Source: Bacteroidota bacterium (GTDB lineage: Bacteria; Bacteroidota; Rhodothermia; Rhodothermales; UBA10348). Taken from it: 64,000 nt of DNA. The notes beneath the pieces were generated by a model. The model was not told the DNA's origin, did no database searches, and was given only the letters and a program-made list of their open reading frames with translations. Position numbers and translations under genes: made by a program. Of this stretch, positions 42,472 through 59,390 are shown in pieces (the stretch's first letter is position 1; each line of letters begins with the position of its first letter). The stretch is from NCBI GenBank assembly GCA_022567305.1, contig JADFHF010000013.1:1-64000 (forward strand). Direction: 5' to 3'.

Positions 42472-45400
42472 ATGAGTTCGATGATCACTTCGGGAAACTG
42501 TCCGCGAACAATAATTCCACTCATTCTGCTTGTCTTGGCCGGATGCACGGCAGCATCTGTTTATATCTCGCCCATGGACCGGTCCAATCTTGCCGCTGCA
42601 CCTCCTTCAATCGATGAGCTTAAGCACGAGGTGTATCTCATTGGTGATGCCGGGGGATCCACTTCCCCTTCGTCCGAACCGACGTTGAAATTGCTGAAAC
42701 GATTGACCGAACAAGCCGACTCAAACGGGACGGTCGTTTTTCTTGGTGACAACGTCTACTGCTGCGGTCTCCCGGATTCCTCATCTTCGAGTCGGGCATA
42801 CGCCGAGATGCGACTGAGAGCCCAGATAGATGCGATTCAAAACTATAAGGGCCGAGTCATTTTCGTGCCCGGGAATCATGACTGGGGCGGGGATTCAATC
42901 CAGAGAGTGGACCTCGTAAATCGACAAGAGGCTTTCGTCGAATCTGCACTTGGTGACGAACAATCGTTTTTACCGAACAATGGTTTACCTGGACCCATTG
43001 AAGTAAAACTGGAAGATGGATTACGCCTCATCGTGCTCGACACTCAGTGGTGGATGACGGATGCGATGAAGCCCTTTGGAGAATCTGGGTCAGCCGACAT
43101 TGAAGAAGAGGCCGATCTTTTTTTAGAGCTACAGGATCTCGTAACCAAACGTCGAAAGGATGACCTCCTCATCGTTGGCCACCATCCGATTCGATCGAAT
43201 GGCAGACACGGTGGACATTTTTCAATAAAAGACCATTTATTCCCCCTGACCGCCGTAAACAAGAATTGGTACCTACCCCTGCCCATTATCGGATCTCTCT
43301 ACCCGATTCTTCGGCGGGCCACGGGTGGACCGCAAGATTTTTCGAATCCCAAGTATCGATCGCTGATCAGCGCCTTGGACGCAATATTTCGAACCCATGA
43401 AGCTCGATTGGTTTATGCGTCCGGTCACGAGCACAATCTAGAGTACTTCTCAGAAGGGCAAATCCACCACGTCGTAAGTGGAGCAGGCTCGAGAACGGAT
43501 TACGTGGCCTCCGGAAGGGATGCCCGGTTCACCTATGGCGGAAAAGGCTTTATACGGATCAGATATTACGAGAATGGCGAGATGTGGCTCGAGGCCTGGG
43601 GAAGCCACGAAAACAACCCGGAAGGACGTCTTCTTTACCACGCTCAGATGGAAGGTCCCGCTCCCGAGGTCATTACCGAACCCATCATCGTTGAAGACGA
43701 GCAGCAACTGTTGATCCCACCGGATTCAACCGTCCGGCGGGCCGCGAATCCTTCGCTAGCGGCTGGCGGTCTCTACAAATTCTTTTTCGGCTCTGAAAAC
43801 AGGAAAGCCTGGACGACTGAAGTCAACTTTCCAGTGTTTGACATAGGCACAGAGTCTGGAGGTCTGACGCCGATAAAAAGAGGCGGCGGACTTCAGACCA
43901 CATCCCTTCGATTGCGTGATTCGCAGGGAAGGCAGTTCGTTCTTCGATCCGTAACAAAAGATCCAACGAAAAGCTTGCCGCCGGAACTGAAAGAGACCCT
44001 CGTGGCAAATATTGTGGTTGACCAGTATGCCATCTTGCACCCGTTCGCGACCATTGTTGTACCCAAACTTGCCGATGGTGCGGGTGTCTACCATACCAAT
44101 CCGAAGATCGTCCTGGTCCCCAAAGACGATCGTTTTGGCCCTTTCAGGGACGTGGTTGCCAACCAGATCATGCTGTTTGAGGAACGACCGGATGACGACA
44201 TGTCTCACGCGCCGACATTTGGAAGATCCAAAAAAGTCATCGGCATCGTGTCTATGACGAAAGAAATTACGAGCGACAATGACAACCGCGTCGATGTGCG
44301 CTTCTACGCCCGAGCTCGCCTTTTCGACATGTACATCTCCGATTGGGATCGACATTCAGATCAGTGGCGCTGGGCTGAATTTCCGGCGGAGGACGGCAAA
44401 GGAAAACGCTATCGCGCCATCCCGCGAGATCGAGATTGGGCGATGAGTCTCATGAATGGAATTTTTCCGAGCATTGCTAAATCCCGATATGTGCTAGGCA
44501 AGAATCAAGATTTTCGAGAGAGCTATGGGTATGTCAGAGGCTTGACCCGGAACGGGCGACCTCAGGATAGAAGGTTTTTGACATCTCTCACCAGGAGCGA
44601 CTGGCTGGAAATCGCACGAGACATTCAATCGGGTTTAACCAACGAAGTCATCGATTCGGCCGTAAACGATTTTCCTGAACCGATCCAGGAATTATATGCA
44701 GACGAATTTCGTCACCTCCTCCGGGTTCGGCGAAAAAAATTGCCGGACGCGGCTGAAGAATACTATGAACTACTTAGCCGATTTCCTGATGTGGTAGGAT
44801 CCAACAAACACGAGCGTTTCGAAATCAAAAGACTCAGCGGCGATCGGACTGAAATCGTCATGTATAAAACATCCAAAGAGGGAGAAATTCGAAAAGAACT
44901 CTTCAGGAGAACGTTTTTGGGCTCTGAAACCGACGAAGTCAGGCTGTACGGACTCGGTGGAAACGACGCTTTCGTTGTAACGGGAAACGCCGATCACGGC
45001 GTACGTATTCGAGCCATTGGAGGAGTGGGCTCGGATCGATTCGTTGACCACTCCGGCCCATCCGCTCGACGAAAGAGCTTTCTGGTTTACGATGTTCCGT
45101 TCGAAACGGAGATCCACATCGGCCCGACCATGTCGATACGATTATCTAATGATCCACTGGTTAACCGCTATGATCCCCACGAGTACGGATACCCCGATTT
45201 CATGCCGTCCGTGTTCTTCGGTCTGAATCAGGATGACGGACTCTTCATCGGTGGAGGTGGTACCATCACACGATACAGTTTCAGGCGCCATCCGTTTGAT
45301 AATGAACACTCATTTCGAGCCAATCTCGCAGCAAGAACTGGGGCGTTTAATGTTGCCTATGAGGGGCGCTTTACCGATCGCTTGAATGGCTGGGATATCG

Positions 45401-46230
45401 GTGTTGAAGCATCCGTTCGCACACCCAATAATATCCGCAACTTCTATGGACTCGGAAATGAAAGCCCCAACACAAACGAAGATGCCGAGTTTTATCAGGC
45501 TCGATTTTCTGAGGCTGTGGCTGGCGTGAGACTGATTAAGCCGGTGGGTGAGTTTCTGGAGTTTTATATCGGCCCAAAGTTGGAGCGCACAGACATAAAG
45601 AGTGATTCTACTCGATTCGTTGGCCAACCGCAGGCCGGTATCTCGCTAGGATCATTCGGGAACCAGACATTTATCGGACTTGAATCTGGATTCGACGTTG
45701 ACGCCCGCGACTCTGGAGTATATCCTAGACAAGGTTTTTTCTGGGAGAACAGATTTCATTTTAGACACGGCTGGCACGAATTATCGACCGATTTCATCGA
45801 GCTCTCTTCGAATTTCACTCTATATGTAACACCCGTCTCACAGCCCCGAAATACCTTCGCTGCCAGAGTCGGAATTCGTCACAATATCGGAGATTTTCCT
45901 TTTTACAGATCAAGTACACTCGGTGGGAAACATAATCTGAGAGGCTGGCGCAGCACTCGCTTTGCAGGCCGAACTGCATTTTATCAGAGCTTCGAGATTC
46001 GAACACAACTTTTTAGATACTCGACGCTCTTAGCCGTGGGCTCAGCCGGCGCCCTTGCGTTCGTCGACAACGGTCGTGTGTGGACGGATGCAGAGCGCTC
46101 CTCGACGTGGCATCAAGGCTATGGAGTTGGCTTCTGGGCTAATCTGTTTGACCTTTCGGTGTTTACCGCGACGCTTAATTTTTCAAAAGAGGAGACCACG
46201 GTCTACATCGGACTCGGACTGTTCTACTGA
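42472..46230 (+). CDS. Metallophosphoesterase fused to BamA/TamA-type outer-membrane barrel, lipoprotein
   Basis: 1252 residues. A lipoprotein signal (IIPLILLVLAGC) precedes a metallophosphoesterase domain at about 45-400 with motifs YLIGDAGGST, VVFLGDNVYCCG, VPGNHDWGG, IVGHHPI and ASGHEHNLE. A middle region at about 430-900 of unknown fold follows (ISDWDRHSDQWRWAEFPAED, RAIPRDRDWAMSLM). The C-terminal roughly 350 residues form a barrel with the surface-antigen signature STLGGKHNLRGWRSTRFAGR and end in an aromatic residue (GLGLFY), typical for Bam-dependent insertion. I infer a phosphatase held at the outer membrane. It pairs with the upstream propeller and overlaps folB by 7 bp. Confidence 0.86.
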   Translation: MSSMITSGNCPRTIIPLILLVLAGCTAASVYISPMDRSNLAAAPPSIDELKHEVYLIGDAGGSTSPSSEPTLKLLKRLTEQADSNGTVVFLGDNVYCCGLPDSSSSSRAYAEMRLRAQIDAIQNYKGRVIFVPGNHDWGGDSIQRVDLVNRQEAFVESALGDEQSFLPNNGLPGPIEVKLEDGLRLIVLDTQWWMTDAMKPFGESGSADIEEEADLFLELQDLVTKRRKDDLLIVGHHPIRSNGRHGGHFSIKDHLFPLTAVNKNWYLPLPIIGSLYPILRRATGGPQDFSNPKYRSLISALDAIFRTHEARLVYASGHEHNLEYFSEGQIHHVVSGAGSRTDYVASGRDARFTYGGKGFIRIRYYENGEMWLEAWGSHENNPEGRLLYHAQMEGPAPEVITEPIIVEDEQQLLIPPDSTVRRAANPSLAAGGLYKFFFGSENRKAWTTEVNFPVFDIGTESGGLTPIKRGGGLQTTSLRLRDSQGRQFVLRSVTKDPTKSLPPELKETLVANIVVDQYAILHPFATIVVPKLADGAGVYHTNPKIVLVPKDDRFGPFRDVVANQIMLFEERPDDDMSHAPTFGRSKKVIGIVSMTKEITSDNDNRVDVRFYARARLFDMYISDWDRHSDQWRWAEFPAEDGKGKRYRAIPRDRDWAMSLMNGIFPSIAKSRYVLGKNQDFRESYGYVRGLTRNGRPQDRRFLTSLTRSDWLEIARDIQSGLTNEVIDSAVNDFPEPIQELYADEFRHLLRVRRKKLPDAAEEYYELLSRFPDVVGSNKHERFEIKRLSGDRTEIVMYKTSKEGEIRKELFRRTFLGSETDEVRLYGLGGNDAFVVTGNADHGVRIRAIGGVGSDRFVDHSGPSARRKSFLVYDVPFETEIHIGPTMSIRLSNDPLVNRYDPHEYGYPDFMPSVFFGLNQDDGLFIGGGGTITRYSFRRHPFDNEHSFRANLAARTGAFNVAYEGRFTDRLNGWDIGVEASVRTPNNIRNFYGLGNESPNTNEDAEFYQARFSEAVAGVRLIKPVGEFLEFYIGPKLERTDIKSDSTRFVGQPQAGISLGSFGNQTFIGLESGFDVDARDSGVYPRQGFFWENRFHFRHGWHELSTDFIELSSNFTLYVTPVSQPRNTFAARVGIRHNIGDFPFYRSSTLGGKHNLRGWRSTRFAGRTAFYQSFEIRTQLFRYSTLLAVGSAGALAFVDNGRVWTDAERSSTWHQGYGVGFWANLFDLSVFTATLNFSKEETTVYIGLGLFY

Positions 46231-46690: not shown

Positions 46691-47668
46691 CTAAAAGCCG
46701 GCACGATCAAGAAGGTCTTTTAGATCAGACGAGAGATCCGATGTCGCCTTCAGCTGACTGATGAAAAGCGTTCCGTACAATCCGAGAATGGTATCGCTTC
46801 GTTTGCGATGCTCATCCAGCATTCGAACCACATCGGCATTTTTTAGCTCCTCTGAGACGTACATTTTTCTAGGACCATTAGGGCCGGGCCGCGATTCGGC
46901 CGGGAAACTTCGTTCGGGCTCGAACAATCGATTCCCAAAATGACATCCGACACAGCGAGTCGGCACGGTCAGGTCCGTCGGATCACGCCGAATTCGAGTC
47001 GTCTGCTCTCCGGACTCGTCGTAGGCGTAGAAATCCCAATACCCATCATTTCGCTTCGTCAATGCGCTTACTTCGAGGACTCTATCCCCTTCCACATGTT
47101 CTGAAATAAAGGTCGTTCCGGCATTATACATAATCCGATTGCCCGACTCACGGTATGATGAAAGAGCGGAGATCAGTGCGTCTTTTGGAACGTGAATTCG
47201 CCTAATACTGGAAGACATCACGCCATTTACTTCAAAACTGAACCATTCTCCACTTACCCTCCAATCCCCTTTTAAAGTCCGCAGATCAGCGATCGAACGC
47301 GGGATGGGCCTGTAGTCGTAATAGTGGGCTTGGATGATGGGTTCCAATTCTGCCCAATCGATCGCACCATCCTCAGCGGCAGACACCAAGGAAGACCCTA
47401 ATTCTGGAAGCCTTGCTGAAATTCTTTCCAGTATCAAGTAGAACCTGCCGCTTCGCTCTTCTACGAATCCTGCTTCGAATGGATCTTGTCCTTCGTCGGA
47501 AACCATGCCGCCGATGTAGAATGAAAGCAAGCGCCGGTCATCTGCCCCCTCCAATACGATTCGAACTCCGGAGTCGTCCTCGTTCGGAGGGCTATCTCCG
47601 GTACGCCCGCACGCCATCCCATTCAACAGCCCGACCGTCAAACCGGCGATCAGAAAAAATCTATTCAT
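46691..47668 (-). CDS. Lipoprotein with a single CxxCH motif, unknown function
   Basis: 325 residues starting with a lipoprotein signal (RFFLIAGLTVGLLNGMAC). The body reads as a mixed domain (AFLY-type strands SFYIGGMVSDEGQDP, WDFYAYDESGEQTTRIRRD) and then TRCVGCHFGNRLFEPE, a CxxCH that could bind covalent heme c. The track ORF runs to 48091 over the start of the opposite gene; the ATG at 47668 gives a clean signal peptide and is chosen. Homologues I recall are only annotated as hypothetical, and a link to respiration or surface redox chemistry is a guess. It is divergent to the HhH gene, 87 bp apart. Confidence 0.68.
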   Translation of the reverse strand: MNRFFLIAGLTVGLLNGMACGRTGDSPPNEDDSGVRIVLEGADDRRLLSFYIGGMVSDEGQDPFEAGFVEERSGRFYLILERISARLPELGSSLVSAAEDGAIDWAELEPIIQAHYYDYRPIPRSIADLRTLKGDWRVSGEWFSFEVNGVMSSSIRRIHVPKDALISALSSYRESGNRIMYNAGTTFISEHVEGDRVLEVSALTKRNDGYWDFYAYDESGEQTTRIRRDPTDLTVPTRCVGCHFGNRLFEPERSFPAESRPGPNGPRKMYVSEELKNADVVRMLDEHRKRSDTILGLYGTLFISQLKATSDLSSDLKDLLDRAGF

Positions 47669-47755
47669 GTTGGCTATCGAGATCCTCCGAAGGAAGCTGT
47701 ACATTGGACTCCCGTCTTCGCGATAAAACGCCCATGTGAATGGGTCGGTTCTAAG

Positions 47756-48997
47756 TTGAGTCCCGTACTTCTCATAGACGCTATCCCCGATTCTATAGAG
47801 ATCATCGTTCTGACGATCGTCTGGTTTGCCGGTGGTATCACGGGTGGGATTTTCCTTTATCGCATTCGTAACAAGAAAGAGCTTGGATTGTTCGAAGCCC
47901 GAAAAACGGCGCTCGGGAATAGGGAGAAGGAATTGGCCCGTATTCGAGCGACGATAAAAGCGGAGCAACGAACCGATAATTCGGGCATACTCGAAGCCAC
48001 CGTCACCGTGCTCCGCGAAGAACTGGACCAACAATCTCTCGAGATCAGTATTGCGAAGGAAGAGCATGGTCTCGAACTCCGAATTCTTCAAGATGAGATC
48101 GAGTCATTGACGCACGGGCCCGGCGAAACGGCTGGATTCGCCTACGAAATCGAGGACGTCACATTCAATACGGAGTCATCGTCCGAGACGGAGCCACCAG
48201 AAACAGCATCGTCCGAGACGGAACCAACAGAAACAGCATCGTCCGAGACGGAGCCACCAGAAAAAGTATCGTTCGAGACGGGGCCACCAGAAACAGTATC
48301 GTCCGAGACGGAACCATCAGAAACAGGATCGTCCGAGACGGAACCACCAGAAACAGCATCGTCCGAGACGGAGCCACCAGAAACAGGATTGTCCGAGACG
48401 GAACCATCAGAAACAGTATCGTCCGAGACGGAGCCACCAGAAACAGTATCGTCCGAGACAGGGCCACCAGAATCAGTATCGTCCGAGACGGAGCCGGCGG
48501 AAAACCAGGAATCAGTCACCGACTGGCCTACAAACGATTTTTCTTATCTGTTTAGTGACGCCACAGCGGAGTCTAACCGAAACGAAGAAGAACCAAGCGA
48601 GAAGGAAAGCTTTCCAGCAAAAAACAAAGCATCTCTTGACCTGACTCCTAGCGAAAAACAGATGGAGACCGGGGATATCACGATCCCAGAATTTCCACCA
48701 TTCAAGTCTCTTGTCGAGTTATTTCCTCTCTTAAAACTGGACGAGCCCGATTCAGAGACGATTGAGGAGGATAAGTCTGGCTCCAAGACCCGTGCTGCTG
48801 GTCTACAGATGCTTCTTGGACTAGCGGATCATGAATTCAGTCAGCTCCGCGAACTGGGATTCAATTCGTACGAAAGTATTGCCGAGCTATCATCTTCCGA
48901 TATCTCGCATCTTTCAGAAAAATTCAACCTGCCCGCATCGCGTGTCGAACAGATCTGGATCTCTGGGGCTCAACTTCGTCTGTTCGAGGGCGGTTGA
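47756..48997 (+). CDS. Membrane-anchored protein with ten-residue repeats and C-terminal HhH domain
   Basis: 413 residues. A TM helix is at about 10-32 (DSIEIIVLTIVWFAGGITGGI), then a coiled coil (EKELARIRATIKAEQ) and a Ser/Glu/Thr/Pro-rich region made of eleven copies of SSETEPPETA-like units. A polar linker leads to a C-terminal helix-hairpin-helix domain (LQMLLGLADHEFSQLRELGF, YESIAELSSSDISHLSEKFN). This layout recalls predicted TM-HhH nuclease-like proteins (COG3743 type). The start codon is a TTG at 47756, inferred. Function is unknown; DNA or membrane tethering are possibilities. Confidence 0.72.
   Translation: MSPVLLIDAIPDSIEIIVLTIVWFAGGITGGIFLYRIRNKKELGLFEARKTALGNREKELARIRATIKAEQRTDNSGILEATVTVLREELDQQSLEISIAKEEHGLELRILQDEIESLTHGPGETAGFAYEIEDVTFNTESSSETEPPETASSETEPTETASSETEPPEKVSFETGPPETVSSETEPSETGSSETEPPETASSETEPPETGLSETEPSETVSSETEPPETVSSETGPPESVSSETEPAENQESVTDWPTNDFSYLFSDATAESNRNEEEPSEKESFPAKNKASLDLTPSEKQMETGDITIPEFPPFKSLVELFPLLKLDEPDSETIEEDKSGSKTRAAGLQMLLGLADHEFSQLRELGFNSYESIAELSSSDISHLSEKFNLPASRVEQIWISGAQLRLFEGG
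48179..48508 (+). repeat. 30-bp tandem repeat, eleven units, coding
   Basis: Units are variants of TCGTCCGAGACGGAGCCACCAGAAACAGCA, always in frame, encoding SSETEPPETA-like decapeptides. Copies differ by few bases (for example GGG for GAG, TCA for CCA). No spacers, so it is not a CRISPR. The near-identity suggests recent expansion and length polymorphism between strains. Confidence 0.92.
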
Positions 48998-48999
48998 TC

Positions 49000-49929
49000 C
49001 TACGAGTTAACGATCTCAAGGGTCGGAATCGTCGTTAGATCGCGGAATGCTTCAATTCGTTTCCGAATGTCCGCGTTTTCGATTTCGAACAAGCGATCGG
49101 GCCCGAACGCTTCGACGGTAAACGATGCCACGGCGCTACCGAATACGACGGCCTGTTTCAGAGCATCTAGAGAAATGTCCTTTTGAGCCGACAGATGACC
49201 TGCGAATCCGCCCATAAAGGCGTCGCCCGCCCCGGTAGGATCCTGGATATCCTCCAGGGGATATGCGGGGACGGAAAAGACATTGTCTTCGGTGAACAAT
49301 AAAGCACCATGTTCGCCTTTCTTGATAACGAGGATTTTCGGGCCCATCTGCTGAATGAGCTTCGAAGAACGAATCAGGTTGGGCTCGTCGGCCAACTGGC
49401 GGCATTCTGAGTCGTTTACAATCAGACAATCAATCCGTCCCAGCGTTTCTCGAAGTTTTTCGGGAGTTTCGTCAATCCAGTAGTTCATGGTATCACATAC
49501 GACAAACGTAGGATCAATCATCTGATCCAGGACGCTGCACTGAACGTGCGGATCGAGATTACCAAGGCAGACGATATTGGATTTTCGGAGTTGATCCGGA
49601 ATCTGCGGCCGAAACGTCTTCAGCGCATTCAGATGCGTAGCGATCGTGTTTCGCTGATTCAGGTCGTGCTCGTATTTCCCTTCCCACGCAAACGTTTTCG
49701 ACGATTCGTCAATTTCGAGACCCGTCAGATCGATTTCCGCGTCTCTCAGCTGGTCCACAAATTCGTCTGGAAAATCGTAGCCAACAACGGCAACCAGACG
49801 AACGTCCGTCGAGAAAAAGCGGGCAGCCATGGTGATGTACATAGCGCTGCCACCCAGAATGTTTTCGGCCTTTCCAAAAGGGGTCTCGATGGAGTCAAGC
49901 GCAACCGTTCCAACCGCCAGCACACTCAT
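49000..49929 (-). CDS. PfkB-family carbohydrate/nucleoside kinase
   Basis: 309 residues of the ribokinase fold: N-terminal VLAVGTVALDSIETPFG, a substrate loop ILGGSAMYITMAARF, and the PfkB signature DPTGAGDAFMGGFAGHL with the catalytic Asp and anion hole. It phosphorylates a sugar, nucleoside or similar alcohol; substrate cannot be stated. The track opens at 50049, but the ATG at 49929 directly precedes the first strand and is preferred. It stands alone, convergent with the HhH gene. Confidence 0.92.
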   Translation of the reverse strand: MSVLAVGTVALDSIETPFGKAENILGGSAMYITMAARFFSTDVRLVAVVGYDFPDEFVDQLRDAEIDLTGLEIDESSKTFAWEGKYEHDLNQRNTIATHLNALKTFRPQIPDQLRKSNIVCLGNLDPHVQCSVLDQMIDPTFVVCDTMNYWIDETPEKLRETLGRIDCLIVNDSECRQLADEPNLIRSSKLIQQMGPKILVIKKGEHGALLFTEDNVFSVPAYPLEDIQDPTGAGDAFMGGFAGHLSAQKDISLDALKQAVVFGSAVASFTVEAFGPDRLFEIENADIRKRIEAFRDLTTIPTLEIVNS

Positions 49930-50206
49930 GTCATTTTGCTCTGATGTAAAGAATCTCAAAACCCGCTGAAGATACAAAGCTGATTGTGAAAACCGGTAAG
50001 CACGTGATTCAATATCCGTTCTGGAATTACCGCGACGATTCACAATCATCGGCGTCTGTCTTTGTCATCCCATTGTGATAAACGACATTTTTTATCTGTC
50101 GGAATTACTCAACTCCCCGGAAACGTCGCGACCGTCGAGCCGTATGTAAGCTACATTTCGTACAGCCAGTTTCTTTTTCGACACGCTGCTCTAGATCAGT
50201 ATCTGA

Positions 50207-53200
50207 ATGAGTTTCCTCAACCCGAGGGGTAGAGACGAGTTCTTCGTTCTTTCTCGGTTTCATGCTGCCTCACTGACAATTTTTCTCCTCTCGATAACGG
50301 TCCTCGTACAAACCGGCCTTGCTCAACCGGAGGATCGTCGATCGGATCGAACGTTCGCAACCACGTTAGATCATTTTCAGTCAGGGCTTTTCAGTGTTGC
50401 TGCCGACGAGTTTGCAGAGTTTCGAAGGAGTCACCCCGATCACGGAAGAATCAGCGATGCTCTTTACTACGAGGCTGAATCGCGCCTGGCGCTCGGCCAA
50501 AAGGATGAAGCGGTTCGGTTGCTGACTGAATTTGAAGCATCCTTCCCTTATCACCCCTTTTCATTCCAAGCCCGATTAACCCTTGGCCAGCACTTCTTCG
50601 AAGAAGGCGATCATGAGAATGCGATTCGGACACTCGCTCTTGTTCTGGACAAGAGCCCTACGGATGAGCAAGCGGCAAAAGCCTTGTATTGGATGGGCGA
50701 AGCCTCCATCCGTGCCGGACGAGATGACGAAGGCTTGAATTACTTTCGGCGTGCAGCCGACGAGTATCAGCGTACGAATACCGCTCCAAGGGCAGCCTAT
50801 GCGCTGGCGTTTAACGAAGTCCGAATCGGGCGATATGAGGACGCGTCTCGATCTTTTGAAGAACTGGCGGCCAGATTTCCGTCTTCGCCGCTTTCGCAAA
50901 ACATCGGTCTCGCCCTTGCCGAAGTTTACTATGAAATCAACGATTTTACGCGTGCCGTTGACGAAATTGAAAGACGGCTACCCAATCTATCAGGTACGGC
51001 TGAAGATAGAGCCATCTTCCTTTTGGCCGAATCCTACAATCAGCTCCGTCAGAGTCCCCGTGCTATTCTGAACTACCGGCGCATTACCAATGGTGATACT
51101 CAGAATCCATACTACCGCAGAGCTCTGTACGGATTAGCCTGGAATTATCATCACGAAGGAACGTACGAATGGGCTGCCGACAATTTTGGTCTGGTCTACG
51201 CTGCTGATCAGCGAGCCGATGGTTTATCCGCACAGGCCATGTACTACGAAGCGGTCAACCGAAAGCTTGAGCGAAACACCGATGAGGCAGCCTTAATTTT
51301 CAGAAACTTCGCCACAAACCGGCCTGATCACGATTTGGCTGACAAGGGTTGGTTTGAACTGGGCATCCTCTACTACGAGTTGAATCTCTGGCGTGAGGCA
51401 AACCAGGCTTTTGAAGAAATTATCGATCGGTACACGGATTCCGATCTGATGGGCGAGGCCCTTCTGCACCGAGGGAATACGTTTATTGCTCTGGGTGATT
51501 TTGACGCGGCGCTCGAAATGTTCAATCGCGCGATTGACCTCCAGGCAGCACCGCTGGCTCTGAAGGAAGAAATTATCTTTCAAAAGGCATGGCTTCTATA
51601 CAGAAATCGTAAGTACCGCGAAGCCGCACCAGGATTCTTAGACTTGTTCGAGCAGAATACCGATGCGGCGAAAGCCGGAGAATCTCTTTTTTGGGCGGCT
51701 GAGAGTTATTTCCAACTCAACAATTACTCCCGCGCCGATCGTCTTTTTCGACAATATCTGAGAGAATTTCCGTCGGGAAGACACATGGATGCAGCCCACT
51801 ACGCACTGGGTTGGACGTATTTCAAGCAGGAGGACTATCAACGGGCCATTCCTGAATTCGAACGTTTTCTATCTGCCTATCGAGACGAAACAGGATCGGT
51901 ACCCTATCGATCGGACGCACAATTACGCCTGGCAGATTCTTATTTCGCACTCAAGCAGTACCCCGACGCCGTACGGGTTTACGGTCGCTTAGCCGGAGAT
52001 GGAGACGATTATGCCCTCTATCAGATTGGGCACGCGTACTCAAACGCTGGCGACACCTTTGAAGCCATATCTACGCTCCGCCGACTCCTTGAAGAGTATC
52101 CAGTGAGTGAATGGCGGGAAGAAGCCCAGTATTCGCTTGGATACCTCTATTTTCTGAGTCAGGATTATGAACAGGCTATCGCGGCGTATAAACAGCTGAT
52201 TCAAACGTATCCCCGCGACCCGCTTGCGGCTAAGGCTCAATACGGGATCGGCGATGCCTTTTTCAACGAAGGCAGTCTTGGCGCCTCCGTTGACGCTTAC
52301 AATGAGGTGCTTCAGAATTATCCAAATAGCCCATTCACCTCCGATGCCGCTGCTGGAATCCAGTTCGCATTGATGGCTAGTGGCGACGAAGACCAGGCCG
52401 ATGTCATTATTGATAGGTTCGCCGCCAACAATCCGAATTCACCCGTCATAGACCAACTCTTGTTTCGCCAGGCGGAGGTCAAGTATCAAAGCGGCAGGAT
52501 CGACGAAGCGCTTGCAGAATTCCATCGATTTATCGAAGAGGCCATTCGGGAAGACCTGATGCCTGACGCCTATTACTACCTCGGAATTATTTATTCCGAT
52601 CGCAATGAGAAGACGACTGCAATGACGAGTTTTCGCCAGGTCGTCGAACGACATAGTGAAAGCGATCGATTTGTCGAATCTTCAAAACTTCTCGGGAATC
52701 TTCTACTGGAATCCGGTGATGTAACCGAAGCTGAAATCGTATTTCGTCGATTGGAAAGTTTGCATAGCGACGACGCGGGCGTTGTGGCCGCTGCCCGATA
52801 TGGACGAAGCCAGGCTTTAAGTCGGCTCGGACGGTCGGATGAAGCAGAGACATTACTCCGGGATGCTATTGCCGCGGCCCCGGACTCAGATGAATCAACG
52901 CCTGCTCACCTGGGCCTCGCCCGGATAATCCATTCCAGAGGTGAAGTCTCCGAAGCAGAAACCATATTCGAACGGGTTGTGAGTCGAAGCAGAGACCAAA
53001 CCGGCGCCGAAGCGCTCTATTTGTTGGGATCATCGCAACTAGAACGAAGCGCGCCGGAACTTGCAGTAGAAACGCTTGGCCGTATGCCGGTGCTCTACGC
53101 CGGATATGCCGACTGGGTGGCACGGGGTTATCTGAAACAGGCCAAATCGCTTGAGGCACTTAACAATCGCGGCGAAGCCCGACGGATCTACGAGATGGTG

Positions 53201-53287
53201 ATCACGCTCTATCCCAATTCTGAATTCAGTTCCATGGCTGAACAAGAGAAGGACAGGCTGAACAAGAGAAGAACTGACAGACTGTAA
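50207..53287 (+). CDS. Large periplasmic TPR protein
   Basis: 1026 residues with a signal peptide (AASLTIFLLSITVLVQTGLAQ) and at least twenty tetratricopeptide-like helical repeats from about residue 50 to the end (DALYYEAESRLALGQKDEAV, AQYSLGYLYFLSQDYEQAIA, AQYGIGDAFFNEGSLGASVD). Repeats of the BamD/YbgF type dominate. Such proteins act as scaffolds in envelope machines. It heads a co-directional cluster with a barrel, HU-like, SPOR and ExbB/ExbD genes; the next gene starts 2 bp after its stop. Confidence 0.87.
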   Translation: MSFLNPRGRDEFFVLSRFHAASLTIFLLSITVLVQTGLAQPEDRRSDRTFATTLDHFQSGLFSVAADEFAEFRRSHPDHGRISDALYYEAESRLALGQKDEAVRLLTEFEASFPYHPFSFQARLTLGQHFFEEGDHENAIRTLALVLDKSPTDEQAAKALYWMGEASIRAGRDDEGLNYFRRAADEYQRTNTAPRAAYALAFNEVRIGRYEDASRSFEELAARFPSSPLSQNIGLALAEVYYEINDFTRAVDEIERRLPNLSGTAEDRAIFLLAESYNQLRQSPRAILNYRRITNGDTQNPYYRRALYGLAWNYHHEGTYEWAADNFGLVYAADQRADGLSAQAMYYEAVNRKLERNTDEAALIFRNFATNRPDHDLADKGWFELGILYYELNLWREANQAFEEIIDRYTDSDLMGEALLHRGNTFIALGDFDAALEMFNRAIDLQAAPLALKEEIIFQKAWLLYRNRKYREAAPGFLDLFEQNTDAAKAGESLFWAAESYFQLNNYSRADRLFRQYLREFPSGRHMDAAHYALGWTYFKQEDYQRAIPEFERFLSAYRDETGSVPYRSDAQLRLADSYFALKQYPDAVRVYGRLAGDGDDYALYQIGHAYSNAGDTFEAISTLRRLLEEYPVSEWREEAQYSLGYLYFLSQDYEQAIAAYKQLIQTYPRDPLAAKAQYGIGDAFFNEGSLGASVDAYNEVLQNYPNSPFTSDAAAGIQFALMASGDEDQADVIIDRFAANNPNSPVIDQLLFRQAEVKYQSGRIDEALAEFHRFIEEAIREDLMPDAYYYLGIIYSDRNEKTTAMTSFRQVVERHSESDRFVESSKLLGNLLLESGDVTEAEIVFRRLESLHSDDAGVVAAARYGRSQALSRLGRSDEAETLLRDAIAAAPDSDESTPAHLGLARIIHSRGEVSEAETIFERVVSRSRDQTGAEALYLLGSSQLERSAPELAVETLGRMPVLYAGYADWVARGYLKQAKSLEALNNRGEARRIYEMVITLYPNSEFSSMAEQEKDRLNKRRTDRL

Positions 53288-53289
53288 GG

Positions 53290-55026
53290 ATGATGAGAAC
53301 CATCTTGGGATTCGTGACATTATGGCTGATACCTGGCATTTCTGTTGGCCAAGAAAATCCGTCCCTGCCGGACTTAGCTCCTCATGTAGTCGAGATCACG
53401 GGCGATCTCTCGATTTCTTTCCCTTCCTTGAGACGACAACCCCTCGTCGGCTTTAATCCTCCACCGAGAGTTCCAGAAATTCCCTCGTCCCGGCATCCGT
53501 TTTTAGAATTATATAAGCAAGCGACAGATGACCTTCCTCCTAGCCCGCTTAGCCCACCGCAGCCACCTGATGTTTCCACTCTTGCGAATCGAACGCCCAA
53601 TGATGGATTGTTCGAGGCCGGGGTTGGACGGTATCTAGAACGATATCTGCGAGCCCATTTGAGTGTCCCAGTGGCTGAACAGACCGGCCTTGTGTTCTCA
53701 GCACGGTATCACGGATCAGACGGATACGAACCGTTTTCAAGCAATCCGTCGATTTCATCAGGCTCGGATTCGGAGCATTTGTCGGCGGGTATCAACCACC
53801 GTGCCGGAAGCATACTGGTGGGGGGAAAACTCGGCCTCCATAGATCGGCCTTCTCGTTGTTCGGCTCTGAGCACAGTTCCGGATCAGCCCTTGCGCTCAA
53901 TCCGGACCGCACGGTCTCGGGTTGGAATCTCTCTGCGTATTTAGGCACCCGGCCTGGATCTCCCGTAGCAGCACGGCTAAGCCTCGGCACCGGTCGTACG
54001 GACGTGGAGACGGACCTCTTTGACGCGGCTCAGCAGTCGATCCGACCGTTTTTACAACGTGAAGGTCAGTTTTCTCTAGACGGCTCCCTTCGGGCCCCGA
54101 TTAACGATAGCCATGCATTTTTCACCGGGCATCTATTGATTCAAAAGCTTGAACCCGATGGCTCCGAAGAAATCAAAATATCATCGGGTCAGGTAGCCGG
54201 AAGATTTCGCCTGTTTCCTGGAGACGGCCTCACACTGGACGCCGGACTTAGTATTCTCGGGTTTGATGCAGAGGGTCAATCTCGGTCTGGAGAAGATCGA
54301 TCACTCGTTTTTTTGTCCCCCGATATTCGATTGACGTATTCGCTTCGACCGGGTACCGACCTTGTATTTTCTAATGAACCCGAACTCTCGCGAAGCACCA
54401 TTCGCGATGTCTACTTCTTGGCGCCGTACATAGAGGACAATCCCGCTATCCAACCCGTTCTAACACCGGTCCACCTGAGCGGTAAGATCAATTTGTATAA
54501 TGAATTTATTCACGCCACCGCCAGTATCGGCCTAAAGGCCGTTGAAAATTTTCGCGTCATTGAGTCACCTCCTGGCCCGTTCAAAGGATTCGATCGGGGA
54601 TACCTGTCTGTCGACTATGAATCTGCCACTGTCACCTATCTGGACGGGTCTATCACGGCGACGCTTTCACCCGGCGTACAAGCGAATGCAGAGATCGCGT
54701 TTCGGCGGGGTCGATTGGACAGATCCGATTCCATCATCCCGTACTTCTCCCCTGTCACATTCGGAGGCTCAGTTGCGCTCGGAATGTTCGATGGGCGTCT
54801 TTCTTTGAAACTGTTGGCCAGAGGTGAATCCGCGAGGTATCGTGATCGGAATAAGTCAGAAAAGGTGGGCTCACTTCTTCTCTTCGACACGGAAGGCACG
54901 TGGTACCTGACCGATCAGGCAGGAATCACGTTTGGTATCCGAAACTTGGGTGGAAACACGGAATTTTGGGACAACTACGAAATAGAGTCTACCGTCGTCT
55001 ATACTGGAGCCAGATGGCGATGGTAG
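53290..55026 (+). CDS. Outer-membrane beta-barrel protein (TonB-receptor-like)
   Basis: 578 residues with a signal peptide (ILGFVTLWLIPGISVGQ), a Pro-rich segment (PPSPLSPPQPPD), and then a long series of alternating amphipathic strands (FSLFGSEHSSGSALALNPD, VHLSGKINLYNEFIHATASI) ending with WRW, a terminal aromatic typical of barrels. There is no clear plug domain, so it is either a plugless TonB-receptor relative or another barrel. It follows the TPR gene by 2 bp, so the two gene products probably work together. Confidence 0.76.
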   Translation: MMRTILGFVTLWLIPGISVGQENPSLPDLAPHVVEITGDLSISFPSLRRQPLVGFNPPPRVPEIPSSRHPFLELYKQATDDLPPSPLSPPQPPDVSTLANRTPNDGLFEAGVGRYLERYLRAHLSVPVAEQTGLVFSARYHGSDGYEPFSSNPSISSGSDSEHLSAGINHRAGSILVGGKLGLHRSAFSLFGSEHSSGSALALNPDRTVSGWNLSAYLGTRPGSPVAARLSLGTGRTDVETDLFDAAQQSIRPFLQREGQFSLDGSLRAPINDSHAFFTGHLLIQKLEPDGSEEIKISSGQVAGRFRLFPGDGLTLDAGLSILGFDAEGQSRSGEDRSLVFLSPDIRLTYSLRPGTDLVFSNEPELSRSTIRDVYFLAPYIEDNPAIQPVLTPVHLSGKINLYNEFIHATASIGLKAVENFRVIESPPGPFKGFDRGYLSVDYESATVTYLDGSITATLSPGVQANAEIAFRRGRLDRSDSIIPYFSPVTFGGSVALGMFDGRLSLKLLARGESARYRDRNKSEKVGSLLLFDTEGTWYLTDQAGITFGIRNLGGNTEFWDNYEIESTVVYTGARWRW

Positions 55027-55106
55027 CGCAACCATCCAACGAGTAGGCAGAACATTCCGCATTTATTTCGCAGTTTTATTTATTTGATGAATAGACACGT
55101 CGTTTA

Positions 55107-55367
55107 ATGGTACGAGCCGGTATGACAGATCCCTTCGAAAAGCTGTTTTGGGAGATCCTGAGAGACGGCCTTGCCAACGGTGAAGCCATGGCTGTTCGGG
55201 GCCTGGGAATTTTTTCGATTATTCACAGCGCTGGACAAATAGAAGGGACGGGTCCGCAATCAAGAGCAACCGATTCAAACCATTCGGAAGCACACGACGG
55301 GATCATTCGTGTCTCGCCGCCTAGCGATTCGATCGTCTTCGAGGGCGAAATCAGTAGTTCGAATTGA
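55107..55367 (+). CDS. Short HU-like domain protein
   Basis: 86 residues: DPFEKLFWEILRDGLANGEAMAVRGLGIFSII resembles the N-terminal half of HU/IHF-type domains, which read L-x-x-G-x-x-V-x-I-x-G-x-G-x-F. The tail is polar, without a full DNA-binding arm. It may start at the ATG at 55107 or at the in-frame ATG at 55122. In Bacteroidota such truncated HU domains occur beside or fused to SPOR proteins. It is followed 22 bp later by a larger gene with a second HU-like domain. DNA-binding is doubtful. Confidence 0.58.
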   Translation: MVRAGMTDPFEKLFWEILRDGLANGEAMAVRGLGIFSIIHSAGQIEGTGPQSRATDSNHSEAHDGIIRVSPPSDSIVFEGEISSSN

Positions 55368-55389
55368 GCACTCAGATCAAAGCGTCGAA

Positions 55390-56502
55390 ATGTCGGATTT
55401 CCTAATATCAAATCTCACTTCAAAGCTATCTCTCGATGAGAAGGAAGTTGAGAGGCAGATCGAAAGATTAGTGGCTAGGCTGATCGACGACATCAAAAGA
55501 GACGGTGGATCAGACATCCCTGAGTTCGGACAATTCCGGTTTGAAGACGATGGGCTGAAGTTTACATCCGCTACCACGCTTTCGGAATTCGTAAATTTTA
55601 GATATCGCTCGCTCCAAACGTTCTCGTTTCCAGCAAAGGACGTGGCAGACGCTAAGCCCTCTTCCCCGGTAGAGTCATCTGCGGAGTCTCCACAAGAGGA
55701 TTCGGTGGGCGATGACGATTCATATCTTCTGGAAGCTCTTCTTCCGAAGGAATCGCTCCCGGCGTCCGCTTCGGCGATTCCTGTACCCGCGCCTAAGACA
55801 GACAGACCGCCTTTGAAGCCTCGGCCATCCACTGGAGCAGAGCGTTCTGAACGAGGAAAGTCAAAGCGTACTTCAGAAAGCGCTATAGAACGTGACACAA
55901 AAGACGAACCAAGGAGCCGTATCCTCAGACGCGCACTCTGGTTCGTGCCCGTTCTCGTTCTCGCAGCGATCATGGTCCTTGTGATCAAGCCGGGGGAAGG
56001 TGAATTAGATTTATCCGAGCAGGCTAACGCTCCGAACGAATTGCCTCTCACAGAAGTAGGCGATCTTGATGCAGGCGAGCCGGACGATGACAGGACGGGC
56101 GCGGCGGTAACCGACCGGGAGTCCCCGTCGGAAGACGAGTCCACATCCATTCCGAAAGCGGGGGCGGCAAGCGACAGAGTCGACCGTCCAGCTCCAATCA
56201 AACAGGATCCGGCCGGAGGTCAACCCGCAACTTCAAGTCAATTTGTTTCCGATTTTGCCCGCTCCGCGCCCGGTTACACGCTGATCGTGGGATCCGTTTT
56301 CACCCGTGCAAGTGCCGAGATTGAGATGCGTCGGTTTTCAAATCTTTCATTACCTCTGGCCATTTTGGATTACGGCGACGGTGGAGTGACTCGATATCGA
56401 TTGGCTGTCGGTAAGTTCGATACAATCGAGGCAGCACAACTTGCGATGCAGAGTGCATCAGGACAACTTCCGAATGGAACGTGGGTCCGAAGAATACGAT
56501 AA
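55390..56502 (+). CDS. HU-like/TM/SPOR-domain envelope protein
   Basis: 370 residues: an N-terminal HU-CCDC81-like region (about 1-75; LARLIDDIKRDG, IPEFGQFRFED), a long Ser/Pro/Glu-rich cytoplasmic linker, one TM helix (ALWFVPVLVLAAIMVLVI), an acidic periplasmic linker and a C-terminal SPOR domain (YTLIVGSVFTRASAEIEMRR, RYRLAVGKFDTIEAAQLAMQ). SPOR domains bind glycan strands stripped of stem peptides at division sites. The track start lies further upstream inside the preceding gene; the ATG at 55390 is preferred. It precedes ExbB/ExbD genes. Confidence 0.78.
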   Translation: MSDFLISNLTSKLSLDEKEVERQIERLVARLIDDIKRDGGSDIPEFGQFRFEDDGLKFTSATTLSEFVNFRYRSLQTFSFPAKDVADAKPSSPVESSAESPQEDSVGDDDSYLLEALLPKESLPASASAIPVPAPKTDRPPLKPRPSTGAERSERGKSKRTSESAIERDTKDEPRSRILRRALWFVPVLVLAAIMVLVIKPGEGELDLSEQANAPNELPLTEVGDLDAGEPDDDRTGAAVTDRESPSEDESTSIPKAGAASDRVDRPAPIKQDPAGGQPATSSQFVSDFARSAPGYTLIVGSVFTRASAEIEMRRFSNLSLPLAILDYGDGGVTRYRLAVGKFDTIEAAQLAMQSASGQLPNGTWVRRIR

Positions 56503-56535
56503 CATTTTTTTGATCATCAACTAATCACGCACATC

Positions 56536-57255
56536 ATGGCATACCTGCTGGTACAGCAAGTCGCAGAAGCCGTTCAAGACTCTTCAACCGTTTCGGAGGT
56601 GGAATCGGTTAGTCAACTCGACATCTTGTTTCAGGGTGGTTGGATCATCATACCAATTTTTCTGCTTTCTATTCTTGCCGTCTACCTGCTCATTGACCGC
56701 CTGCGCACCATTCAGAGAGCCTCTGCCGATCGAAACGAGATTATGGCGAAGATCCGGGACTTTGTTTCCGCTGGGAATATTGACGGGGCCGGGGCCTATT
56801 GCGATGTCCAGCAAAAACCCATCACGAGAATTCTAAAGCACGGACTGGAGCGGCTTGGAAGACCTATTTCAGAAATTCAGGACGCGGTAAATTCCGCAGG
56901 TAAACATGAGGCGTTCCTGCTTGAAACAAGAACGGACCTATTGGCCACGATCGCCGGAATTGCGCCCATGCTCGGTTTTCTCGGCACGGTAACGGGGATG
57001 ATCAAAGCCTTCCAAACCATCCAAAACCTTCAAGGAAGTGTGAACCCCAGTGTTTTGGCAGGCGGCATCTGGGAAGCCCTGGTTTCGACGGCTGCTGGAC
57101 TCACGGTCGGCATTATCGCATTCTTCTTCTACAATTTCATCCTTAACAGGATCAGGCGACTCGTCAACGACATGGAGCAGTCAGCGACGGAGTTTATTGA
57201 TATGCTTCAGACCCCGGCTCCAGCGCCCCGCTCTTCGCACGAAGAATCCTTTTAA
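56536..57255 (+). CDS. MotA/TolQ/ExbB proton-channel family protein
   Basis: 239 residues with three TM segments: [20 protein letters not shown] (about 35-54), [19 protein letters not shown] and the final [18 protein letters not shown]. The conserved [10 protein letters not shown] and [10 protein letters not shown] motifs identify the family. It forms the stator with ExbD and uses proton motive force. The C-terminus is cytoplasmic and soluble. It lies in the cluster after the SPOR gene and 15 bp before exbD-like. Confidence 0.93.
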
Positions 57256-57270
57256 CCCGAGGACGTCACA

Positions 57271-57678
57271 ATGTCTATAGATTTTTCAACCGACAAAAAG
57301 CCTCTAACGGAATTTAGCCTGGCGAGCCTGGCCGACATCGTGTTTCTCCTGCTCATATTCTTTCTGCTGACGTCGAGCTTTATTCCCCAGTTTGGCATCC
57401 AGGTCAATCTACCGAAAACAAGCACGTCCGCGCCGACGGACGCCCAGTATGTAACGGTGATCATTACAAGCGAGGGACACTATTACGTCGATCAAAATCA
57501 GATCTCCAAAGAACAGCTCTTACCGGTCATTCAGAGTTCACTGAATGGGAGAACAAGCCTCGTGCTGAGAGCCGATGAGGATGCTACGGTCGGTCAGTTT
57601 GCAACGGTTGCTAGCGTGGCACGAGCACTGAATCTGAGGATATTGATGGCAACCGAGCGAGAAAGCTTCGGTTTCTGA
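57271..57678 (+). CDS. ExbD/TolR biopolymer-transport family protein
   Basis: 135 residues with a single TM helix (LASLADIVFLLLIFFLLTSSF) that holds the conserved Asp of ExbD (the proton-carrying residue), then a periplasmic domain (QVNLPKTSTSAPTD to RESFGF). It partners with the ExbB-like protein. No TonB, TolB or Pal gene follows; the next gene is convergent. It closes the TPR-barrel-HU-SPOR-ExbBD cluster. Confidence 0.93.
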   Translation: MSIDFSTDKKPLTEFSLASLADIVFLLLIFFLLTSSFIPQFGIQVNLPKTSTSAPTDAQYVTVIITSEGHYYVDQNQISKEQLLPVIQSSLNGRTSLVLRADEDATVGQFATVASVARALNLRILMATERESFGF

Positions 57679-57713: not shown

Positions 57714-59195
57714 TCACAGGCGCGCAGGCGCTTTGCCTGCTTCTACAGCGTTCAGAATAAACTGCCGAATATCCTCGTTTGATGTCGCGAGATCCTCTTG
57801 ACGTAGATACATCATGTGACCGCTTCGATAGCCTTTGAAGATCATTCGATCCTGCAGTCTTCCCGCCGGATCCATATTCCACATCGTGTATTTTGCATTG
57901 AAGTAGTCCGTTCCACCGTCAAAATAGCCGGACTGGACCATCAAGTGTAAATACGGATTCTGCGACATGGCCTGACGGAGATTTTCACCCGTGTTATCTC
58001 CATCCCGGTTCCACGGAGAAACTGGTCCGAATAGGTTGTACTTGAGATCTGTTTTGAAGCCAAGGACATCGCGCAGGTAGTGGTTGATGGCAGGAGCAAA
58101 CGCATGATTCCAGGCTGCCATGGAAGGATCGAAATCATAGCGTTCCCCCGCGTCTTCGCCGTCACGCCCCCTGTACCGCGAGTCCAGACGGCCAATCGTG
58201 AGCCCCTGGTCCCGAAGAAGTTCCTTCCAGAAAAATGAAGTCGGAATATCCAGATTGTGATCCAGAACGGCATCCACGGAAAGACCGGAGTAATAGGCCA
58301 TGCGCGCGGCCACCTCCTCTCTTCTGCCTTCCTCGATTGAGCCGCCCCGAACCAGAGCAGGAATCACTTCCTCGATCGTATAATTTTCGACCTCAGGCAA
58401 AAGATCATCCAGGTCCCGTTTTTGCAGCTCGGCAGGCAATGCATCGTGGTACCAGGCCGCAGCTGCGAAATACGGTAGGCGCAATCCAGCGCGGACCGGT
58501 CCGTCGCGGTCTATGCCCAGCCTGGTCGGCGACACGAGAATGACACCGTTGAGGTACATCCACTGGCGACTCTGGAGCGCCCCAGCCAAGCCTGAAACAC
58601 GAGTGGTCCCATAGCTCTCGCCAATCAGGAATTTGGGGGATGTCCAGCGTTCATGTCGAGAAACGAAATTTTCCAACCAATCAGAGAGATAAGCGATGTC
58701 TTCGTTCACTCCAAAAAATTGCTCCCGGTCGGCTTCGCCAATCATCCTCGAGAACCCCGTATTGACAGGATTGATGTAAACGATGTCGGCCACGTCCAGA
58801 ATGGAGTAGGGATTGTCGTGGATACCATACGGCTGGACCGGATAGCCTTCGTCGTCGATGTTGAGATTTTTTGGACTGGTATAACCCAGATGCATCCATA
58901 CAGAAGCAGATCCGGGGCCGCCGTTAAATGAGAACAAGAGGGGTCTCACCGTTGAGTCCGGAATGTGCGTTCGCTCGTAATACGTATACAGCAGAGCTGC
59001 AACCGGCTCCCCTTCTTCTCCCCAAACCGGCTGGGTCCCGACCGTCACATCGTAGGGCACTCGCTGACCTTTAATCGTGACTTCGTCGGAGGATGTGATG
59101 GTCGTATCTGGCGGGAGGGATCGCTCCTGCGCGTAGGTTGAAGTGAAAACGCAAACGCACAAGAGGCCGAGCGCCAAAATCGTCAAGAATTTCAT
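57714..59195 (-). CDS. S10 family serine carboxypeptidase-like protein, exported
   Basis: About 493 residues with a signal peptide (KFLTILALGLLCVCVFTSTYAQ). The serine carboxypeptidase fold is visible in LLFSFNGGPGSASVWMHLGY (oxyanion Gly-rich loop), LIGESYGTTRVSGLAGALQ with the nucleophile Ser, the acid in SGYFDGGTDYFNAKYT and the His in GYRSGHMMYLRQ. It trims C-terminal residues from peptides outside the cytosol. The track ORF starts at 59228; the ATG at 59195 has AAAGGA upstream and a direct signal peptide, so it is preferred. It is divergent to an S9 peptidase. Confidence 0.92.
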   Translation of the reverse strand: MKFLTILALGLLCVCVFTSTYAQERSLPPDTTITSSDEVTIKGQRVPYDVTVGTQPVWGEEGEPVAALLYTYYERTHIPDSTVRPLLFSFNGGPGSASVWMHLGYTSPKNLNIDDEGYPVQPYGIHDNPYSILDVADIVYINPVNTGFSRMIGEADREQFFGVNEDIAYLSDWLENFVSRHERWTSPKFLIGESYGTTRVSGLAGALQSRQWMYLNGVILVSPTRLGIDRDGPVRAGLRLPYFAAAAWYHDALPAELQKRDLDDLLPEVENYTIEEVIPALVRGGSIEEGRREEVAARMAYYSGLSVDAVLDHNLDIPTSFFWKELLRDQGLTIGRLDSRYRGRDGEDAGERYDFDPSMAAWNHAFAPAINHYLRDVLGFKTDLKYNLFGPVSPWNRDGDNTGENLRQAMSQNPYLHLMVQSGYFDGGTDYFNAKYTMWNMDPAGRLQDRMIFKGYRSGHMMYLRQEDLATSNEDIRQFILNAVEAGKAPARL

Positions 59196-59390
59196 GACTG
59201 GTCCTTTGTATATCTGTTCATGTGGCAATGACGGAAACTAAATGCATACATGGCGTGTGGCAAACAGCGATCGTTCGAACTTTGATTGAATGACAAACGC
59301 ACCTGCGGCACGATTGGAACCAGAATCACCTGACCAGTAATATTACCCGACTTGAACCGTTTTCCGTACCCGCAGAATGAGAGGAACAGA

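Follow-up and report, generated by a model that had tools for sequence, protein, structure and literature searches.

Six co-directional genes in a 64,000 nt stretch of Bacteroidota DNA (the window) belong to a seven-part module that is conserved from Rhodothermota to Bacteroidia, with a gene set that is common to most Bacteroidota. We favor, with modest confidence, the reading that this module encodes a PMF-driven trans-envelope machine of Ton/Tol type, ancestral to most of the phylum. Its most likely job is that of Tol-Pal, a cell-division system missing from most of these bacteria. An initial annotation of the window had suggested a Tol-like machine that links septal peptidoglycan and the outer membrane. 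The predicted topology, the domain content and the comparative pattern support this portion of the claim, short of proof, whereas the suggested link to DNA is not supported and the supposed absence of a TonB does not hold genome-wide.

The six genes occupy positions 50207 to 57678 of the forward strand, as had been reported, in the order TPR, BAR, HU1, HU-TM-SPOR, ExbB and ExbD, and are separated by gaps of 2, 80, 22, 33 and 15 bp. Pfam matches in the window copies back the TPR, SPOR, MotA_ExbB and ExbD assignments. The two final genes encode an ExbB/TolQ-class stator subunit that falls in a Bacteroidota-specific clade (56536..57255, +; PF01618, 2.7e-32) and an ExbD/TolR-class subunit with a transmembrane aspartate (57271..57678, +; SLADIVFLL; PF02472, 2.8e-21). 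In a tree of ExbB sequences, this stator clade (92/86) takes in 29 of 30 linked ExbBs and stands apart from E. coli TolQ, E. coli ExbB and a second Bacteroidota stator that is organized as ExbB-ExbD-ExbD. Unlike this second class, which has two ExbD genes, the window stator has one. The tree agrees with the earlier description of the machine as distinct. Furthermore, the window ExbB scores below the NCBIfam equivalog cut-offs for TolQ and ExbB (TolQ, 88 bits versus a cut-off of 221), and the window ExbD scores below all those for ExbD/TolR (TolR, 42 bits versus a cut-off of 127). A positive control (L258) passes both the TolQ and TolR cut-offs with 248 and 134 bits respectively.

The seventh part is a TonB_C-type transducer. 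Its gene lies directly after ExbD in 33 of 33 Balneolaceae loci, compared with 0 of 22 in Rhodothermales, and is the last of the operon both there and in deeper Bacteroidota lineages. In Rhodothermales the transducer is unlinked, and it is present in 40 of 41 genomes, most of which have one strong match. The copy in the genome of the window (C32:75524-76279) aligns over its whole length (E 1e-55), such that the earlier statement that there is no TonB is correct within the window but not genome-wide. These proteins have one transmembrane segment, a proline-rich linker and a TonB_C/TolA-type C-domain. TonB_C is matched by 18 of 18 linked transducers, and the own-genome copy scores 22.5 bits, just below the cut-off of 24.6. 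This copy also carries the SxxxH motor box, a feature described for TolA/TonB (PMC12204202); the histidine of this box is absent from several Balneolaceae transducers. In addition, the same genome has other TonBs and the second stator (ExbB-ExbD-ExbD, on C107). The C107 locus was considered as a possible location of the missing TonB and was ruled out, as the stator there neighbors genes for a C-terminal protease and for a dehydrogenase.

BAR (53290..55026, +; 578 aa) is a plugless outer-membrane β-barrel of the TonB-dependent-receptor type with a hyper-conserved periplasmic N-terminus that is predicted to be disordered. The window copy has no Pfam match, and no Pfam plug domain is found in any of 33 BAR members. 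In the AF2 model, residues 105-578 form the barrel (pLDDT mostly about 90), while residues 13-102 are predicted to be disordered, with pLDDT values of 31-44 in the conserved N-terminal segment. The outer-membrane barrel named in the initial annotation is thus predicted, and the best matches in a PDB structure search are the TonB-dependent receptors FrpB/BtuB/OprC (E 1e-17). The most conserved part of BAR is the segment at codons 25-60 (53362..53469, +; LPDLAP..VEITGDL.I.FPSLRRQPLVGFNPPPR), where mean pairwise identity is 77% versus 27% in the barrel. This segment resembles a TonB box (VEITG, ELPDFVITG), although the motif pattern was written after the sequences had been seen and its count is descriptive only.

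The closeness of the BAR fold to TonB-dependent transporters, the TonB_C domain of the transducers and the TonB-box-like N-terminus would also fit a Ton system devoted to uptake or export, wherein the stator and the TonB-like transducer energize BAR as a specialized transporter and the HU/SPOR proteins only position it. We consider this explanation unlikely. A plugless barrel provides no gated substrate path, and the transducer has a single strong match in most Rhodothermales genomes while other TonBs and a second stator are available in the genome. Moreover, the link to SPOR is retained over many families, unlike the composition of variable uptake systems.

Immediately upstream of BAR, the TPR gene (50207..53287, +) encodes a periplasmic protein of 1026 aa with a signal peptide and at least 12 TPR units composed of CpoB/YbgF-like repeats (Pfam TPR_6, 2e-86). 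Its best NCBIfam match is tol_pal_ybgF, a match that is inflated by the repeats and is not taken as orthology. The repeats also resemble those of BamD/YfiO, and TPR and BAR are paired without a linked stator in some lineages (L161, L173, L191, L193 and L195). These observations could be accommodated if TPR and BAR were an outer-membrane assembly device, or one for lipid or protein export, that is powered by the stator and coupled by SPOR to septal growth. However, the resemblance is generic and no bam, lpt or lol genes are linked in the neighborhoods examined, which leaves this explanation with a low probability.

The loci used for counts of gene order were chosen by the barrel motif alone. 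Among these, TPR adjoins BAR on its upstream side in 29 of 29 testable Rhodothermales loci but in 0 of 36 Balneolaceae loci, and a single unlinked TPR orthologue is present in 12 of 12 genomes of the class. The order BAR-HU/SPOR-ExbB-ExbD is found in 21-22 of 22 loci from Rhodothermales and in all 33 from Balneolaceae, and the complete seven-part order is present in L185, L249, L162, L256, L257 and L266. Conservation of the block is far above chance, with the same order in several classes, and the first refuting condition named in the initial annotation, an order that is not conserved, does not apply. The module also exhibits reciprocal unlinking, in that a part absent from the locus sits elsewhere in the genome. 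An exception is family f30 (L157, L159 and L160), which keeps TPR-BAR-SPOR and in which ExbB-ExbD-ExbD is the sole stator of the two genomes checked; no clear module member was found in family f19. The separability of TonB in Rhodothermales, of TPR in Balneolaceae and of the TPR-BAR pair in lineages where it has no linked stator is what would be expected if an FtsN-like HU/SPOR division protein lay beside unrelated envelope genes by ordinary clustering, with no joint machine. This is very improbable given that unlinked members are kept elsewhere, that the order recurs and that the stator clade is specific to the module neighborhood.

The two remaining genes encode HU1 (55107..55367, +), a small HU/IHF-fold protein of 86 aa that resembles HU-CCDC81_bac_1, and HU2-TM-SPOR (55390..56502, +), which has a cytoplasmic HU-CCDC81_bac_2-like domain, one transmembrane segment and a periplasmic SPOR domain (Pfam 1.5e-4 in the window copy). 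The mechanical ORF of the latter begins with GTG at 55309, although the ATG at 55390 is the likelier start. The two HU-like domains claimed previously are weak in the window copies alone, which fall below the HU-CCDC81 Pfam cut-offs, but are clear across relatives. Specifically, PF00216 is matched by 22 and HU-CCDC81_bac_1 by 13 of 25 HU1 relatives, and SPOR is matched by 17 and HU-CCDC81_bac_2 by 12 of 21 HU2-SPOR relatives. Because HU-CCDC81_bac_1 (PF18174) has no match at threshold in the own genome, HU1 was identified via its relatives and its fold, for which PDB matches are nearly all HU/IHF. HU1 is fused to the following HU-TM-SPOR gene in L026, L027 and L030, with tandem HU domains in one protein in L026 and L027. 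As a short gene of its own, it occurs in 15 of the 22 Rhodothermales loci that could be tested and in all 33 Balneolaceae loci, which rules out a frameshift or assembly break as the origin of the split.

A relation to chromosome partitioning has reportedly been raised for HU-CCDC81 proteins with SPOR. A chromosome-envelope tether, in which the two HU domains bind DNA, SPOR links the nucleoid to the septum and the stator pulls, would suit the HU/IHF fold of HU1 and the HU-CCDC81 matches but is most doubtful, as is the DNA link raised earlier, since the DNA-binding arm motif (R.GRNP.TG or NP.T) occurs in 0 of 79 HU1 and 0 of 126 HU2 sequences, the HU2 arm is only ~8 residues long and the SPOR protein is without an HU domain in L157, L159, L164 and L168. 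The HU domains probably mediate protein interactions in the cytoplasm and do not bind DNA.

Bacteroidetes are reported to have no identifiable tol-pal loci, and how they manage the outer membrane without recognizable ones is a stated open question (PMC12204202). The earlier observation that TolB and Pal are missing is true of the window, and TolB and a typical Pal appear to be absent from the entire genome. Only weak TolB_N matches (≤32 bits, within reading frames that span 650-1140 aa) were found among 41 genomes, with none in 33 of the 41; the control Bacteroides ihuae, which has TolB_N rings, is an exception to the swap with Tol-Pal. The own genome encodes two proteins with an OmpA domain (338 and 381 aa); one is a PKD-OmpA protein that is lipoprotein-like, the other a barrel-OmpA protein, and both are unlinked. 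In the Chlorobi-like family f25, 10 sampled genomes carry TolQ-class and ExbB-ExbD-ExbD stators and are without the present stator, and L258 of this family has a full tolQRAB-pal by NCBIfam cut-offs. This swap with Tol-Pal is statistically weak because f25 is a single family and represents one or few evolutionary events.

In the machine that we propose, ExbB and ExbD would form the inner-membrane stator, as indicated by their family and residues. The dedicated transducer, encoded in trans in Rhodothermales, would couple to this stator, cross the periplasm and grip the plugless BAR at its N-terminus, which is conserved and unstructured. HU-TM-SPOR, which has an FtsN-like topology, may direct the complex to denuded septal glycan by means of its SPOR domain, and the giant TPR protein could serve as a periplasmic adaptor comparable to CpoB. 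The outer membrane would be held to the septal wall and would constrict with it. More tentatively, the module might be a phylum-wide replacement for Tol-Pal, not previously described, wherein stator and transducer pull the BAR N-terminus at division sites chosen by HU-SPOR and outer-membrane constriction in most Bacteroidota operates via the barrel rather than via TolB/Pal.

Bacteroidota are a phylum that is dominant in gut, marine and soil habitats, and at stake is how their outer membrane is held and constricted. The module is powered, is predicted to reach from the inner to the outer membrane and contains a domain that binds the septal wall, and its seven named genes make the question of outer-membrane constriction directly testable. 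If the proposal is true, a TonB receptor-type barrel has been turned into a structural part.

PorE has been proposed as a substitute for Tol-Pal in Bacteroidetes (Williams-Jones et al., 2025, PMC12204202) and is thus another candidate for this role. It is a single lipoprotein that fuses CpoB, TolB, CPE and Pal and has no motor of its own. Neither OmpA-domain protein of the own genome is PorE-like in length. Operons encoding TPR-TolQ-TolR-TolR-vWA transducer systems (PMC12204202) likewise place a TPR gene next to those for a stator and encode a transducer with the motor box, but this transducer carries vWA rather than TonB_C, and a barrel or SPOR protein is not described there. Bacterial HU-CCDC81 proteins with SPOR (PF18174/PF18175) share the tandem HU domains, transmembrane segment and SPOR domain, which here are split over two genes, both in the window and in most relatives. 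A link between such proteins and a stator/transducer operon is absent from the open-licence papers searched on HU-CCDC81 with SPOR, or on SPOR with TolQ/ExbB, in Bacteroidota, and an earlier description elsewhere is possible.

Ton systems (ExbB-ExbD-TonB with a TonB-dependent transporter) have in common with the module a stator, a TonB_C transducer with the SxxxH motor box and a barrel of the 22-strand type whose N-terminal segment is conserved. In contrast, the barrel of the module is plugless, SPOR/HU and TPR proteins are linked to it, and the same genome also encodes other TonBs and a separate stator of the ExbB-ExbD-ExbD class. Compared with Tol-Pal (TolQRA-TolB-Pal-CpoB), the module is without TolB or an adjoining Pal, has an integral barrel rather than a lipoprotein as its outer-membrane partner, includes a built-in SPOR protein with HU domains, and uses a stator from a separate clade that scores under the TolQ/TolR cut-offs. 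Like Tol-Pal, however, the module has a PMF stator of the same superfamily, a one-TM transducer with a proline-rich linker and a TonB_C/TolA-type C-domain, and a periplasmic TPR partner. A role at the septal wall and outer membrane is probably shared as well, and the module and the Tol-Pal of family f25 are present as alternatives.

Six genes occupy positions 50207-57678 on the forward strand, as the initial annotation described, and encode in order a periplasmic TPR protein (TPR), a plugless outer-membrane barrel (BAR), a small HU-fold protein (HU1), a protein with an HU domain, one transmembrane segment and a periplasmic SPOR domain (HU/SPOR), ExbB and ExbD. The successive intergenic gaps are 2, 80, 22, 33 and 15 bp; the HU/SPOR frame begins at GTG 55309, within HU1, and ATG 55390 is the likelier true start. 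Upstream lies a divergent gene for a PfkB-family carbohydrate kinase (49000-50049, reverse strand), a neighbour kept in most Rhodothermales loci, and downstream a convergent S10-type peptidase gene (57714-59228, reverse strand). The more distant surroundings include a membrane protein gene (47756-48997, forward strand) with a tandem repeat at 48178-48495 (30-bp unit, 10.6 copies, 89% match) that encodes SSETEPPET units and also creates long frames on the opposite strand. A conserved neighbour at 46691-48091 (reverse strand), without a Pfam match and about 330-390 aa long in relatives, carries a CVGCH motif close to its C-terminus in the window. The gene at 42472-46230 (forward strand) encodes a 1252-aa fusion of a calcineurin-like phosphoesterase domain and an Omp85-type barrel.

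This order proved to be conserved in loci picked by the barrel motif alone, whose flanking genes were then scored. In the named genome collection, relatives of the 3.76 Mb genome containing the window comprise Rhodothermales, 'Bacteroidetes' MAGs and Roseithermus. Among 39 Rhodothermales-like loci, TPR precedes BAR in 29/29 testable cases, and BAR is followed by HU/SPOR in 21/22 and by ExbB and ExbD in 22/22; the sole HU/SPOR miss is in Roseithermus (L067), where the SPOR protein is broken across two frames. Among 41 Balneolaceae-like loci, HU1, HU/SPOR, ExbB and ExbD follow BAR in all 33 testable cases. The same block, including TPR, is also found in further families of the phylum, and conservation of gene order far exceeds chance.

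A gene of about 275 codons lies 1-15 bp after ExbD in every testable Balneolaceae locus, and its counterpart is 3' of ExbD in L162, L163, L164, L166, L172, L185, L192, L249, L256 and L257. The linked product, termed here the transducer, has a single N-terminal transmembrane segment, a linker rich in proline and glutamate, and a domain matching TonB_C (18/18). It follows ExbD in none of 22 Rhodothermales loci. A profile search, however, recovered it, mostly as a single copy, in 40 of 41 genomes, including our own (contig C32:75524-76279, E 1e-55), so the noted absence of TonB, true of the window, does not extend to the whole genome. The transmembrane sequence of this copy, GSLVLHLVLL, contains the SxxxH motor box, a feature of TolA and TonB (PMC12204202). 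Conversely, TPR adjoins BAR in none of 36 Balneolaceae loci, yet one full-length orthologue is present in 12/12 tested genomes of that class; unlinked in Balneolaceae, it adjoins BAR in a family f16 genome (G109, L185). That two lineages each unlinked a different member but retained it argues for a single module of seven parts: TPR, BAR, HU1, HU/SPOR, ExbB, ExbD and the transducer.

An AlphaFold2 model of BAR built from 33 relatives predicts a barrel of about 22 strands at residues 105-578 (pLDDT mostly about 90), preceded by a segment at residues 13-102 with pLDDT of 31-44. Its PDB matches are the TonB-dependent receptors FrpB, BtuB and OprC (E 1e-17 to 1e-18, TM about 0.63); no plug domain was found in BAR. 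The predicted-disordered segment is by far the most conserved portion of the protein, with a mean pairwise identity of 77% at residues 25-60 versus 27% in the barrel. Its conserved sequence, LPDLAP.EVEITGDL.I.FPSLRRQPL.GFNPPPR (ELPDFVITG in other classes), appears to resemble a TonB box in position and look.

The two HU-like domains are recognizable in relatives, where HU1 matches Bac_DNA_binding (22/25) and HU-CCDC81_bac_1 (13/25); the HU1 fold retrieves HU/IHF structures. Relatives of HU/SPOR match HU-CCDC81_bac_2 in their HU domain, HU2 (12/21), and also SPOR (17/21). A single protein holds both HU domains in L026, L027 and L030, so the pair in the window is a known architecture divided between two genes. 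The R.GRNP.TG arm tip is absent from all 79 HU1 and all 126 HU2 sequences, and the HU2 arm has about 8 residues. Classical DNA binding therefore seems unlikely, and the suggested link to DNA loses its footing.

Our genome has two stators, the module ExbB-ExbD and an ExbB-ExbD-ExbD set (contig C107:72209-74021, L156) of a nearly phylum-wide class, which is flanked by unrelated C-terminal protease and dehydrogenase genes, with no adjoining TonB. In a tree of 57 sequences, 29 of 30 module-linked ExbBs form one group (support 92/86, slightly below the strict mark) that spans Rhodothermales, Balneolota, f16, deeper families and Bacteroidia ExbB-ExbD-TonB clusters, and lies apart from E. coli TolQ and ExbB as well as the ExbB-ExbD-ExbD stators. 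The remaining one, from an ExbB-ExbD-TonB cluster (L255; G071, family f24), falls outside this group, its long branch placed close to the two E. coli proteins. For the window ExbB, the TolQ score is 88 bits (cut-off 221) and the ExbB score 53 bits (cut-off 206).

Canonical tolQ-tolR-tolA-tolB-pal occurs at L258 in family f25, where TolQ, TolR, TolB and Pal pass NCBIfam cut-offs. A TolQ-class stator is present in nine further sampled f25 genomes, eight of which also yielded ExbB-ExbD-ExbD; the module stator class was found in none of the nine (L292 is an unclear additional sequence). All TolB_N matches in frames of about 430-500 aa in a 70-genome sample belong to f25, and most examined genomes outside this family have the module stator plus ExbB-ExbD-ExbD. 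Because f25 is one clade, this pattern represents one replacement event or a few. The exceptions carry weight: TolB_N is matched in the control species Bacteroides ihuae, f19 has no clear member of the module stator class, and f30 (L157, L159, L160) has TPR-BAR-SPOR with neither HU domains nor a linked stator. In two f30 genomes checked, ExbB-ExbD-ExbD is the only stator, so either it serves TPR-BAR-SPOR or the module there is unpowered. The literature disagrees on Tol-Pal in Bacteroidetes: a 2025 study reported no tol-pal loci and suggested PorE, without mention of SPOR (PMC12204202), in contrast to an HMM-based count that rated Bacteroidetes as nearly complete (PMC8871954). The strongly conserved module, with its predicted function, bears on this question.

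The stator family and residues, the transducer domain and motor box, the barrel type, the SPOR and HU domains and the conserved linkage of the genes are evident in sequence. From these we propose that proton flow through ExbB/ExbD would drive movement of the transducer, which would grip the N-terminus of BAR and draw this integral outer-membrane protein toward the wall at a SPOR-marked site, with TPR acting as a probable adaptor. The initial reading of a Tol-like machine joining septal peptidoglycan and outer membrane is partly supported, and the module appears to be a novel variant within the Ton/Tol class. We place it neither with ordinary Ton systems, given its plugless barrel, nor with Tol-Pal, given the failed TolQ/TolR and TolB tests. 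Tol-Pal shares the working outline proposed here, but in the module BAR would replace TolB-Pal.
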